A stretch of 64,000 bases of DNA, taken from NCBI RefSeq assembly GCF_002866025.1, contig NZ_LNDE01000001.1, forward strand, positions 558,001 through 622,000, read 5' to 3'. Position numbers and translations under genes: made by a program. Source of the stretch: Thermotoga sp. KOL6 (GTDB taxonomy: Bacteria; Thermotogota; Thermotogae; Thermotogales; Thermotogaceae). Below, in pieces: positions 32,185 through 36,658 of the stretch; positions within the stretch are counted from its first letter, which is position 1, and the number at the start of each line of letters is the position of its first letter. A model generated the notes under the pieces. It ran no database searches, had not been told where the DNA came from, and saw nothing but the letters and a program-made list of their open reading frames with translations.

Positions 32185-33828
32185 TCAAATCAGTTTCAGC
32201 TTTTCCAGTGTTAACATCGTTTCAGGTGGTACGATTCTTTCAAGATCTTCTCTTTTTTCGAACGGTCTGTTCAGAATGATTTCTCTTGCGATCGCATTTC
32301 CAATACCTGGTATCGAAACGAGTTCTTCAAACGTTAAGGTATTTATAGATGTAGGATAACGAATACCCGTTACAGAACGCTCTCCGTGGGAGACCACAAC
32401 AACGTCTATGATTTCATCATACTTTCCAGGAGCACCCACAAGAATGGGATAACTTCCCAGTTGTCTTCCGAAAGTGTATTTACCTTCTGAATATTCCGGT
32501 ATCACTTTTTTCAAAACAGTTCCCACAGGAAAGACTCGTTTCAACATTTCGTGGTCTATCTCCTCTCTTATCTTCCTTTTCCACTTTTGATGGAGATGAT
32601 TCTTGATTTTATGTTTCCTATTCCGAAAATACTCGTACACCGGTGTTAAGGGATGTACCAAGAGTTTCCTAATGTTGATCCTCCTAAGCAGATATCCAGC
32701 GTCCAGGATCTTTTTGAGATAGAGGTAATTTTTTCTCAGAGTGTCTTCCGTTTCTCCAGGAAGACCCAATATCAGATTCACACCAGGGAGAAGTTTGGGA
32801 ACACCTTCCACACGAACACCACCTATCTCATTTACTATGGCAATCGCTTTCAAAAATTCCTCAGGCGAACCTTGGATATTGTTCTTCTTCAAAACAATTT
32901 CGTCAAAAGATTCAATACCGAAAGAAAAAACGTCACCTGGAGTGTTGTATTTCACAATGGTTTCAACGATCTTTTTACACTCCTTCTCGTAGGAAACAAG
33001 ATAGGAAGGATTCGCATTGTCCGTGTGAAGAACCTCAAGTGAGGGAGCCACTTCTCTTGTACCAGAATAGAGTTCTTCTATCAACTTCGGAGATGGTTTT
33101 CCGCCGTTTCTGTCAGAACCATAAGCTAAAATGTTCGCTGTTCTTCCAAAGCGAAACGCTCTACACCCTGCCTTATAGAGAGATTTTATTTCCATTAGAA
33201 TAGAATCCACACTGCGCGATCGCAATCTTCCGTGGAGGAGGGGTTCGGTGCAAAAAGTACAGAACGTTCTTCTCTCACATCCTTTTGACAATTCTATCTC
33301 GCATATCACATGTGGAAAATTCGGGTGTTTTTCAAGAATCACGGAACCGTAAGGAGCCACCATGTTTATAATCTCGTAATTACTCCTCGCGTTGGGATTT
33401 GGTTCGCCCTTGAAATATGAAAGGGCGAATGCTTCTATATCTCCAGAGACAACAAAATCCGCGTGAATTCCAAACTTCTTCGCAACCGTTCCACCTTTGA
33501 GTGAATATCCTTCAACGATCGGCCCTCCCACGATTTTCAACGGTTTTTTGGCGATACTCAGTATCCTCTCCAATTCAGAGAGACTCAAAGGAGTTCCACC
33601 TTTGTATCTTCCGGGTACGGTAAGACCTGCAACCACGAATAGATAATCGTAATCATTCACCCTTTCCCAAAGGTTTTCTTTTCTCAATTCGTCTATTGTT
33701 ATGTAATCAACTTCCAGGTTGCAGAGAACCAGTGCTCCTGCGAGATATCTGACATAAGGACTCACATAAGGAGGAACACCAAAGACGGCCGGTTCGTCAA
33801 CATAACCATCGAGAATCAATGCCTTCAT
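32185..33828 (-). CDS. Radical SAM protein with C-terminal helix-hairpin-helix
   Basis: The protein has 547 residues. A Rossmann-like N-terminal domain (about 1-130) is followed by a radical SAM core and a C-terminal helix-hairpin-helix (SIPGIGNAIAREIILNRPF, about 505-525). This layout fits the COG1031 group, mainly archaeal and uncharacterised. The cluster motif is Cys-ERRTF-Cys-TF-Cys, that is CX5CX2C, not the common CX3CX2C. It is the last gene of the sigma-factor operon, overlapping its upstream neighbour by 4 nt. The product and substrate are unknown; HhH suggests contact with nucleic acid. Confidence 0.85.
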   Translation of the reverse strand: MKALILDGYVDEPAVFGVPPYVSPYVRYLAGALVLCNLEVDYITIDELRKENLWERVNDYDYLFVVAGLTVPGRYKGGTPLSLSELERILSIAKKPLKIVGGPIVEGYSLKGGTVAKKFGIHADFVVSGDIEAFALSYFKGEPNPNARSNYEIINMVAPYGSVILEKHPNFPHVICEIELSKGCERRTFCTFCTEPLLHGRLRSRSVDSILMEIKSLYKAGCRAFRFGRTANILAYGSDRNGGKPSPKLIEELYSGTREVAPSLEVLHTDNANPSYLVSYEKECKKIVETIVKYNTPGDVFSFGIESFDEIVLKKNNIQGSPEEFLKAIAIVNEIGGVRVEGVPKLLPGVNLILGLPGETEDTLRKNYLYLKKILDAGYLLRRINIRKLLVHPLTPVYEYFRNRKHKIKNHLHQKWKRKIREEIDHEMLKRVFPVGTVLKKVIPEYSEGKYTFGRQLGSYPILVGAPGKYDEIIDVVVVSHGERSVTGIRYPTSINTLTFEELVSIPGIGNAIAREIILNRPFEKREDLERIVPPETMLTLEKLKLI

Positions 33829-34607
33829 TTTTCCAAAATCACCTTTATTTCGTTGAGAGTGTCTTTATCAGCAACTATAACTATTTCTAAACCATTTACA
33901 GTGATTTTGAATCCTTTCTTAGGAAGATCATTCCCTATGAAAATTTCCACCTTTTGTCCATTCTTGTAGATTCCTTCTATCTCAAGCCCAGAAGTTCCTT
34001 CTCTGATGATAATGAATTTGAAATTCTCAAGCACTTTTGCCAATTCTTTTGGAAATTCTATCTCAGATTCCAAAAACGAATATTCTTTCAACACCTCTTC
34101 TTTTGAAAGAGAAAGAGGCCTTATTTCATCGTAAATCAATTTACTCTTGGTGTTCATGTAGTTTCTCTCTATCTCCTTAGGAAGACCATCTTGGGTCAAG
34201 AAAACTCGGTATTCACCGGAATCATGAATGTCAATCTCGTACCCTTCCGAGGTCTCTTTTATTGAGAAATCCCTTCCTTGCAGTATTTCCTTGAAAGCCA
34301 AATCTTCGAGATCGAGTATCAACATAGGAGACTTTCTCAATTCCTTGGTTGAACCCATATAGCAGTTTGGGCCCAATCTAACCCACGTTACTTCAACAGG
34401 TTCGTACACATGGACCATCTTATCGGCGCCCCATTTGTAAACTTCCTCATATCTGAAACGTGTCTTAAGCCCTATTTCGATCATCACTCTTTTGGCGTAA
34501 TAATTCGAATACATCCAACTTTCTACAACTTTGGGCAGCGCCAACCCAATCGAAGTAAGAAGAACTAGGATGATCAAAGAACATTTCCGCACACTATCAC
34601 CATCCAT
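33825..34607 (-). CDS. Exported RseB/MucB-like protein
   Basis: The protein has 260 residues. The N-terminus is a signal peptide or anchor (LIILVLLTSIGLALPKVVESW), and the rest is beta-rich, with long strands such as VTWVRLGPNCYMGST and SGEYRVFLTQDGLPKEIERNYMNTKSK. This resembles the LolA/RseB fold that senses envelope damage and acts on anti-sigma factors. The similarity is by pattern and operon position only. The start is ATG 34607 or, with a better-placed GGTG, GTG 34592. It overlaps the anti-sigma gene by 11 nt. Confidence 0.65.
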   Translation of the reverse strand: MDGDSVRKCSLIILVLLTSIGLALPKVVESWMYSNYYAKRVMIEIGLKTRFRYEEVYKWGADKMVHVYEPVEVTWVRLGPNCYMGSTKELRKSPMLILDLEDLAFKEILQGRDFSIKETSEGYEIDIHDSGEYRVFLTQDGLPKEIERNYMNTKSKLIYDEIRPLSLSKEEVLKEYSFLESEIEFPKELAKVLENFKFIIIREGTSGLEIEGIYKNGQKVEIFIGNDLPKKGFKITVNGLEIVIVADKDTLNEIKVILEK

Positions 34608-34962
34608 CGTTTACCACTTCTACCGTCCTTATGTAATCGATGACTTCGTTAACACTCGGTTTCTGAGATTGAACCACTTCATGAGATGAAGGTGTGGGAA
34701 AGATATCGAGAACAAACGAAAGGAGGAGAACCGAAAAAATCGCCCCTGCGAGAATCGCCGACAACACCAATCTACTACGTTTTCGCGCTTTCAATATTTT
34801 TTTCATCAACCTGTCGCTCGGAATGTACTCACACCGAATCTTGTAGAGAGAAATGGCTGCCTTGTACATCCTGTACTCTTTCAAAATGTATTCCGGCAGA
34901 TTCTCCAAAGGTTCCTCACCATCCAAAATTCTGTTCAACCTATCGTCCCTCAACACCTTCAC
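34597..34962 (-). CDS. Probable anti-sigma factor
   Basis: The protein has 121 residues. The N-terminal 60 residues are charged and helical and would be cytoplasmic; one membrane helix follows (about 66-88, SAILAGAIFSVLLLSFVLDIF); about 30 residues lie outside. There is no His-Cys-Cys zinc motif, so it is not a classic ZAS anti-sigma. The assignment rests on topology and on its position directly after the ECF sigma gene with a 23-nt overlap. The start could be GTG 34962 or a GTG two codons later. Confidence 0.7.
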   Translation of the reverse strand: MKVLRDDRLNRILDGEEPLENLPEYILKEYRMYKAAISLYKIRCEYIPSDRLMKKILKARKRSRLVLSAILAGAIFSVLLLSFVLDIFPTPSSHEVVQSQKPSVNEVIDYIRTVEVVNDGW

Positions 34963-35512
34963 CTTCTTTCAGCAACTCTCCCAGCCTTTTTCTTGCATAG
35001 TGAAGCCTACTCTTGACTGTTCCAAGTGGTTTTCGGAGAACGGAAGCTATTTCTTCGTAGCTCATGCCGTCTATGTCTCTGAGTTTTATAAGCAATCTAT
35101 CTTCAGGTGATAATTTCTCCAAAGCCTTTTGGACTTTCTCCGCAGAAAGCGAACGCCATACCTCTTTTAGAACATCCTCATTAGCTTGCGGTTGTATGTA
35201 AACTTCATCTTCGTTGTCCGTTTCCTGAAAGTCTGTCAAGAATTCGTTCCTCTTTTTGTATTTTTGAAGATAATCCTTACAAACGTTCACCGCTATTCTG
35301 TAAATCCAAGTGGAAAGTTTTGAGTCTCCCCTGAACTTTTTAATTCCTTTGAATATCCTCATAAAGACATCCTGAACAACGTCATCCACATCATCCGTGT
35401 TCAAATAACTCTTCGCTATGCTTCCTATCTTTGGAGCAAATTCCCTGTACAAGACCTCGTAAGCCCAATTTTCCTTTCTTTTCAAGGCTTCTACGAGTCT
35501 TCTTTCATTCAA
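34940..35512 (-). CDS. rpoE: ECF-type RNA polymerase sigma factor (RpoE-like)
   Basis: The protein has 190 residues with region 2 (DVDDVVQDVFMRIFKGIKKFRGDSKLSTWIYRIAVN, about 40-80) and region 4 (SYEEIASVLRKPLGTVKSRLHYARKRL, about 150-180), and lacks regions 1.1 and 3. This is the extracytoplasmic-function group that usually responds to envelope stress. The start is TTG at 35512, eight bases after GGAGG. It begins a chain of four overlapping genes with the anti-sigma, RseB-like and radical SAM genes. It probably autoregulates, but I could not pick out an ECF promoter. Confidence 0.93.
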   Translation of the reverse strand: MNERRLVEALKRKENWAYEVLYREFAPKIGSIAKSYLNTDDVDDVVQDVFMRIFKGIKKFRGDSKLSTWIYRIAVNVCKDYLQKYKKRNEFLTDFQETDNEDEVYIQPQANEDVLKEVWRSLSAEKVQKALEKLSPEDRLLIKLRDIDGMSYEEIASVLRKPLGTVKSRLHYARKRLGELLKEGEGVEGR

Positions 35513-35544
35513 AGCGCTTTCCTCCTTGTATTAGGACTCAGCCG

Positions 35545-36606
35545 TCAAGGTGACGGTTCATAGATTTTCTCAACGAAGGGAGATGTCATTGCTTTTAAAA
35601 GGCAAGAGTAAGTCATTCTGAATCTGAACACGTCCCCTATTTTCACATCACCAATCTCTGTAACATCCAGAACAATATGGTCACTGGATGCATGTAGAAC
35701 TTCTATACCTTCGTTCATCGGTATGAGACCTCTGCTATCTATATCTTGCTCTCCCAAAGCGCAAATAGCCCTTTTTCTTATACCCTTGTCAACGAACTCT
35801 ACTCTTCTTCCGAAAACATCCAATCCTCTCTTTCCAACAGGAACAGAAGGTTTCTCTTTAACTTCTATAACTTCTGCTTCGATTATGAACGTATCTTGAG
35901 AAAGCCACTCTATAACACGATCGTTGGTAATATCTCTTCCGAGAACGATTGCTTCTCCTATCCTCAATTGATTTATACCTTCTGGAATCTCGTTTCTTTC
36001 AAGTGCATACAGAGTAGGGGTATTCCCCCCTGAAACTATTTCTATGTTGAATCCATACTCTTTTTCGAGCTTTTCTTTTACATCGAGAAGGACCTCAAAC
36101 TTTTCCCTGGTGGGAATTATTCCGCCGTAACATCCAAAGTTCGTTCCTACTCCCGCAATATTTAAACCCTTGCATTGAGCAATTTCCTCAACAGCTCTTT
36201 CAAACCATACACCCTCTCTTAAGTCTCCTACATCTATCATGTATATGAGTTTTACGTCCCTTTTCATCTCTTTGGCTATTTCGTCTACCTTCTTAGCTAC
36301 CTGGGGATCGGAAACCATTATGTAATCGAAGTGTTTGACATCTTCAACCAACTCGCTCATCATTGGAAGCCTCAACAACATGAAGGGTCCATCGATCCCC
36401 GCCTTCTTCATTCTTAAGACATTCTTTATCCGAGACTCTCCAAGTATTTTTATGCCGGCCTTCCGTAAAGTTTCTGCAAAACGGGGATCCCCCAACGTCA
36501 CTTTGGTAACTCCTACCACTTCTATACCTTTAGCACCAGCCATTTCAACAACTTTTCTTGCGTTCTTCTCTATCTCCTTTAAATTTATCAAAACCCTTGG
36601 ATACAT
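35545..36606 (-). CDS. PLP-dependent amino-acid racemase (ornithine/lysine racemase type)
   Basis: The protein has 353 residues of the alanine racemase fold type III, Orr/YhfX group. The PLP lysine is in VVGVTKVTLGDPR near residue 40. VGTNFGCYGGIIPTREKF and IVSGGNTPTL are typical of this group. Thermotoga peptidoglycan contains D-lysine, so a broad racemase supplying D-amino acids for the wall is likely (inference). The ATG at 36606 is eight bases after GAGG; a GTG three codons upstream overlaps the SD. It lies 32 nt before the sigma gene in the same direction. Confidence 0.85.
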   Translation of the reverse strand: MYPRVLINLKEIEKNARKVVEMAGAKGIEVVGVTKVTLGDPRFAETLRKAGIKILGESRIKNVLRMKKAGIDGPFMLLRLPMMSELVEDVKHFDYIMVSDPQVAKKVDEIAKEMKRDVKLIYMIDVGDLREGVWFERAVEEIAQCKGLNIAGVGTNFGCYGGIIPTREKFEVLLDVKEKLEKEYGFNIEIVSGGNTPTLYALERNEIPEGINQLRIGEAIVLGRDITNDRVIEWLSQDTFIIEAEVIEVKEKPSVPVGKRGLDVFGRRVEFVDKGIRKRAICALGEQDIDSRGLIPMNEGIEVLHASSDHIVLDVTEIGDVKIGDVFRFRMTYSCLLKAMTSPFVEKIYEPSP

Positions 36607-36658
36607 GTTCAACACCTCTTTTGTAGTAGAATAGTTAAAAGGAGGTGATCGTTAAACC

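Follow-up and report, generated by a model that had tools for sequence, protein, structure and literature searches.

The closest described relatives of the locus presented here are the RpoE-RseA-RseB system of E. coli and the AlgU-MucA-MucB system of Pseudomonas, in which a sigma factor, a one-span anti-sigma factor and an exported protein of RseB fold are encoded in this order within one operon. Operons of ECF sigma factors are usually autoregulated, and the protease RseP is part of the sigma-E pathway in other organisms. An ECF sigma factor, a one-span anti-sigma candidate and an exported protein of RseB fold occur in the same order on the minus strand of the 64,000-nucleotide stretch of Thermotoga sp. 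KOL6 that was analysed as a whole (the window), and autoregulation is likely a further common trait. The differences are as follows: the anti-sigma and RseB parts of the Thermotogota system are not recognised by family models, zinc-finger relatives of the anti-sigma factor occur within the phylum, the predicted promoter (GAAC-N18-GTC) has another sequence, and in Thermotogales the operon carries a radical SAM gene as cargo. The genes running from 34940 to 32185 are probably best explained as an autoregulated envelope-stress operon of the RpoE-RseA-RseB type, with the radical SAM enzyme as co-expressed cargo. The features of the locus are, in the direction of transcription:

35545-36615 (or from an ATG at 36606, as in the earlier note on this DNA), minus strand: PLP-dependent amino-acid racemase, ornithine-racemase-like (NF040742, below cut-off)
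35535-35559, minus strand: GAAC-N18-GTC, predicted autoregulatory promoter of the sigma/anti-sigma/RseB/radical SAM operon (motif count)
34940-35512, minus strand: ECF sigma factor, RpoE-like, with a TTG start (Pfam, phylum-wide conservation)
34597-34962, minus strand: one-span anti-sigma candidate without zinc ligands (sequence, operon-slot homologues)
33825-34607, minus strand: exported RseB-like sensor/regulator (AlphaFold, Foldseek, N-terminal hydrophobic segment)
32185-33828, minus strand: radical SAM enzyme with a C-terminal HhH domain (Pfam, motif conservation, model, Foldseek)

According to the open reading frame calls, the sigma gene overlaps that of the anti-sigma candidate by 23 nt, the latter overlaps the gene of the exported protein by 11 nt, and this one shares the 4 nt ATGA with the radical SAM gene. 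The racemase gene lies upstream of the sigma gene on the same strand, at a distance of 32 nt. Both the serial overlap and the placing of the racemase had been described in the earlier note, and both were confirmed.

The sigma factor consists of regions 2 and 4 only (Sigma70_r2, 65 bits; Sigma70_r4_2, 61 bits; Pfam), region 3 being absent as in ECF sigma factors, and RpoE is among its best NCBIfam relatives. Its TTG start is preceded by AGGAGG, and genome searches found it conserved throughout Thermotogota. The protein encoded at 34597-34962 is a candidate RseA-like anti-sigma factor that would bind this sigma factor. It has no family match in Pfam or NCBIfam, one membrane span is predicted from its sequence, a hydrophobic stretch around residues 65-85 preceded by RKR, and it has only one cysteine, so that the HxxxCxxC zinc ligands were not found in it. 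It aligns with homologues from the same operon slot elsewhere in Thermotogota, of which two from outside Thermotogales (L043 and L044) have kept the zf-HC2 zinc finger intact (E 1e-8), and a third matches zf-HC2 at E 0.008. Given these same-slot relatives, the zinc-less form in the window looks most simply like a descendant of a zinc-binding anti-sigma factor.

For the exported protein no Pfam or NCBIfam match was obtained, the RseB/MucB family signature included, and sequence comparison with the PDB gave chance-level matches only. An AlphaFold model built from 21 homologues (pLDDT 88.7) has a LolA-like domain and a second domain, as in RseB. In a Foldseek comparison with the PDB the eight matches ranked first are RseB or MucB without exception (E 8e-8 to 3e-7); after them come LolA-type chains interspersed with more chains of RseB/MucB. 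The whole-chain TM-scores against RseB are modest (0.36-0.47), and RseB is therefore a fold assignment and not proof of function. As sequence families do not identify them, the anti-sigma and RseB-like proteins owe their names to position, fold and relatives. The earlier note had proposed, from the layout, an envelope-stress system made of an ECF sigma factor, a one-span anti-sigma candidate lacking the zinc motif and an RseB-like exported protein; this reading is well supported by the results above, and the zinc-finger relatives, the RseB fold and the promoter-like motif described below all favour the envelope-stress reading of the three. In such a system the one-span protein would hold the sigma factor at the membrane, and the RseB-like protein would sense damaged envelope components and shield the anti-sigma factor from cleavage.

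A bipartite motif, GAAC and GTC separated by 18 nt, was first noticed by eye across the regions upstream of the sigma genes (consensus tGAAC-N18-GTCaaA). With the 18-nt spacer it is present in 36/40 sigma loci, compared with a mean of 0.49 and a maximum of 3/40 in 200 mononucleotide shuffles; the effective number of loci is below 40, since close relatives are among them and in one or two the match counted is not the one nearest to the start. The motif looks like an ECF -35/-10 pair and would most simply be the operon's own sigma promoter; that the sigma factor reads it is suggested by the autoregulation usual in such operons. Once released, the sigma factor would then transcribe its own operon from 35559-35535, a copy of the motif whose -10 element is separated from the sigma start by 22 nt. 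We consider a sigma/anti-sigma/RseB-type cassette with an autoregulatory promoter very likely.

Four other matches to the motif were found in the window, none of them upstream of any of the five genes, including the racemase. The strict motif showed no clear excess over a reversed control in the genome of Thermotoga sp. KOL6, and thus no wider regulon was found in the host; a wider scan gave an excess in some other genera, with mixed sites among those inspected. Some single sites may be mentioned. In Thermotoga sp. KOL6 one copy lies shortly upstream of the tmRNA gene (L207:506-922); it was not seen in other genomes of the genus and is perhaps due to chance. HtrA-type proteases are classic envelope-stress targets, and in one case (G021) a copy is located 40 nt upstream of a trypsin/PDZ protease of this type (L229:129-1560). 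In two genomes of one genus (G071, L213-L223) there is an apparent excess of TGAAC-N18-GTCTAA, perhaps a second sigma regulon; the sites lie upstream of a glycosyltransferase-like gene, a flagellin gene and genes for exported proteins.

Conservation of the neighbourhood was investigated in 103 Thermotogota genomes and in 45 genomes of the order Thermotogales. In the latter, the sigma and radical SAM genes adjoin in 42 of the 42 scorable genomes (those in which both genes were found; three were unscorable), which span three families. Such recurrence of the four-gene layout argues that the gene order is not due to chance, and co-transcription of the radical SAM gene with the cassette in Thermotogales is very probable; the dose of the enzyme would then rise with sigma activity. 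Outside the order, adjacency was found in 0/40 Thermotogota genomes, and in other families of the phylum the sigma/anti-sigma/RseB-like trio persists without the radical SAM gene. The earlier note had asked whether the five genes stay together across Thermotogales, and would have given up its proposal if the radical SAM gene lay apart from the sigma genes in most relatives. Four genes are co-linear throughout the order and the racemase is not, and separation of the radical SAM gene from the sigma gene is the rule beyond the order but was not seen in the scorable genomes within it.

The racemase matches NF040742 at 394 bits, below the cut-off of 480 (NCBIfam), and its N-terminal domain is matched by Pfam. 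Its inclusion in the stress system, as suggested in the earlier note, would make of the five genes one D-amino-acid/cell-wall stress pathway in which the racemase supplies D-lysine for peptidoglycan. The common strand and the short gap fit this proposal, as does the finding that MurE of T. maritima incorporates D-lysine into peptidoglycan precursors (PMC3829189), but we consider it improbable. The racemase gene adjoins the sigma gene in 8 genomes only (7 of the genus and G090) and is located elsewhere in the other 14 genomes tallied. The motif copy described above overlaps the 3' end of the racemase gene, which places this gene probably outside the sigma-driven transcript, and no motif match in the window precedes it. 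The racemase is thus probably not a member of the operon, which it adjoins upstream in a single genus and in one relative besides.

The last gene encodes a protein with a radical SAM core (PF04055, 58.7 bits), whose cluster cysteines C184, C190 and C193 are invariant and form a CX5CX2C motif. The spacing is CX5CX2C or CX6CX2C in Thermotogota, and X3, X5 or X7 for the first interval in 51 archaeal sequences (extracted by a procedure different from the neighbourhood gene picking mentioned below), and an N-terminal DGYxDEPAxxGVPPY is conserved in the enzymes of both groups. In the model (pLDDT 89.7) a Rossmann-like N domain is followed by the radical SAM core, a TRAM-like barrel (strands at 438-490) and the C-terminal HhH. 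TRAM was detected by sequence below threshold in the homologue L063 only (14 bits, cut-off 21) and not in the corresponding segment of the window's protein. The top Foldseek matches are MiaB, RimO, MtaB and MgmA, aligned along almost the entire chain, and hhalign against MiaB gives E 1e-12. By its modelled fold the enzyme falls into the structural class of the methylthiotransferases.

It is most improbable, however, that it is itself a methylthiotransferase of the MiaB/RimO/MtaB family. Top fold matches and the profile match favour this identity, and the likeness comprises the overall fold of N domain, core and barrel; the family has CX3CX2C and an N-terminal cysteine triad for an auxiliary cluster, whereas in the window enzyme this triad was not found and the sole cysteine of the N domain, C36, is not conserved. 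For lack of these cysteines the enzyme is not filed as a methylthiotransferase; it also carries the additional HhH and the DGYxDEPAxxGVPPY segment, and scores far under all family cut-offs. A likeness to the B12-type enzymes MgmA and TIGR04013 (MJ_1487) is seen in the structural match 9ccb (MgmA) and in the best NCBIfam score, that for TIGR04013, yet the latter is 78.7 bits against a cut-off of 251 and no conserved histidine for the cobalamin motif DxHxxG was found in the N domain. The enzyme may correspond to COG1031, described as having a radical SAM core and a C-terminal HhH; no mention of COG1031 was found in the literature searched.

A nucleic-acid target had been suggested in the earlier note from the HhH domain. 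HHH_3 scores marginally over its cut-off (27.5 against 27 bits) and the domain is absent from the homologues L063 and L064, indicating that it is not essential to the reaction everywhere; the target is plausible rather through the MiaB/RimO-like fold. The chances that the enzyme acts on RNA may be put at about one half; among enzymes of like fold, RimO and MgmA have protein substrates.

Full-length relatives with about 42-45% identity were found by an alignment-based contig search in Methanosarcina, Methanoculleus, Methanolobus, Haloferax and Natrinema, and the enzyme is present in 143/197 genomes sampled from the phylum to which one Haloferax genome belongs. Three Haloferax species other than H. 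volcanii were among those found to carry the gene. As archaea are not known to use ECF sigma factors, the enzyme has a task that does not depend on the sigma factor. Its archaeal gene neighbours point to no shared pathway and differ from clade to clade (ilvD-like, nucleotidyltransferase-like, thi4-like and Thg1-like genes, named by eye); five of these loci gave no radical SAM gene, probably because high-GC frames were mis-chosen. Several near-complete Thermotogota genomes (G035-G037, G047-G052) have no close relative of the enzyme, and most of them keep the sigma factor. Several in-frame stops interrupt the radical SAM gene of one genome (G041:C9:113943-115522).

These data leave even chances for the enzyme to have a function in envelope stress or to be a passenger, that is, a housekeeping gene which came to lie downstream of the sigma operon in the Thermotogales ancestor and was kept there by translational coupling. 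The many unrelated contexts of the gene in archaea and outside the order speak for a passenger, and so does the absence of the motif upstream of it in 20/20 genomes outside Thermotogales, where co-regulation is accordingly not indicated. Against it stands the linkage kept in all 42 genomes and three families while the genes upstream of the sigma gene vary. Another Thermotogota family has dxr and, next, the M50/PDZ protease gene rseP downstream of the radical SAM gene (L059-L062, L120, L122-L124, L127), an arrangement that would also tell against a passenger if it were not, as it may be, a housekeeping cluster. For the earlier suggestion that the output of the system includes a radical SAM reaction, the co-linearity holds in Thermotogales, but a general pathway of this kind is not supported, given the separation in all 40 genomes beyond the order and the archaeal occurrence. 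In the reading we prefer, the gene of a free-standing housekeeping enzyme that most likely modifies RNA would have been added to the end of the operon in Thermotogales.

One candidate substrate may be named. N-330 is a cytidine of Mr 330.117, and C1404 belongs to the decoding centre of 16S rRNA. By our own calculation this mass fits C12H18N4O7, i.e., cytidine plus C3H5NO2, which could be, for example, a carboxymethylaminomethyl or an amino-carboxyethyl group. N-330 was reported at 16S C1404 of H. volcanii, its gene being given as unknown in 2008, and was noted for T. maritima too (PMC2584109). At the equivalent site of Pyrococcus, hm5C has been tentatively modelled in a study that recalls an unexplained modification there (PMC7005279). 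No gene for N-330 is named in the literature searched. That the radical SAM enzyme makes N-330 in T. maritima and H. volcanii is speculative and unlikely: its distribution and its fold, resembling that of RNA enzymes, fit such a role, but many genes are common to Thermotoga and archaea.

Taken across the phylum, the results indicate an RpoE-RseA-RseB-like system in Thermotogota in which the usual sequence signatures of the anti-sigma factor and the sensor have been lost, and supply a predicted promoter for it. They also single out a conserved radical SAM enzyme common to Thermotogota and Euryarchaeota and, should this enzyme indeed make N-330, a ribosome modification of Thermotogales would be under the control of an envelope-stress sigma factor.
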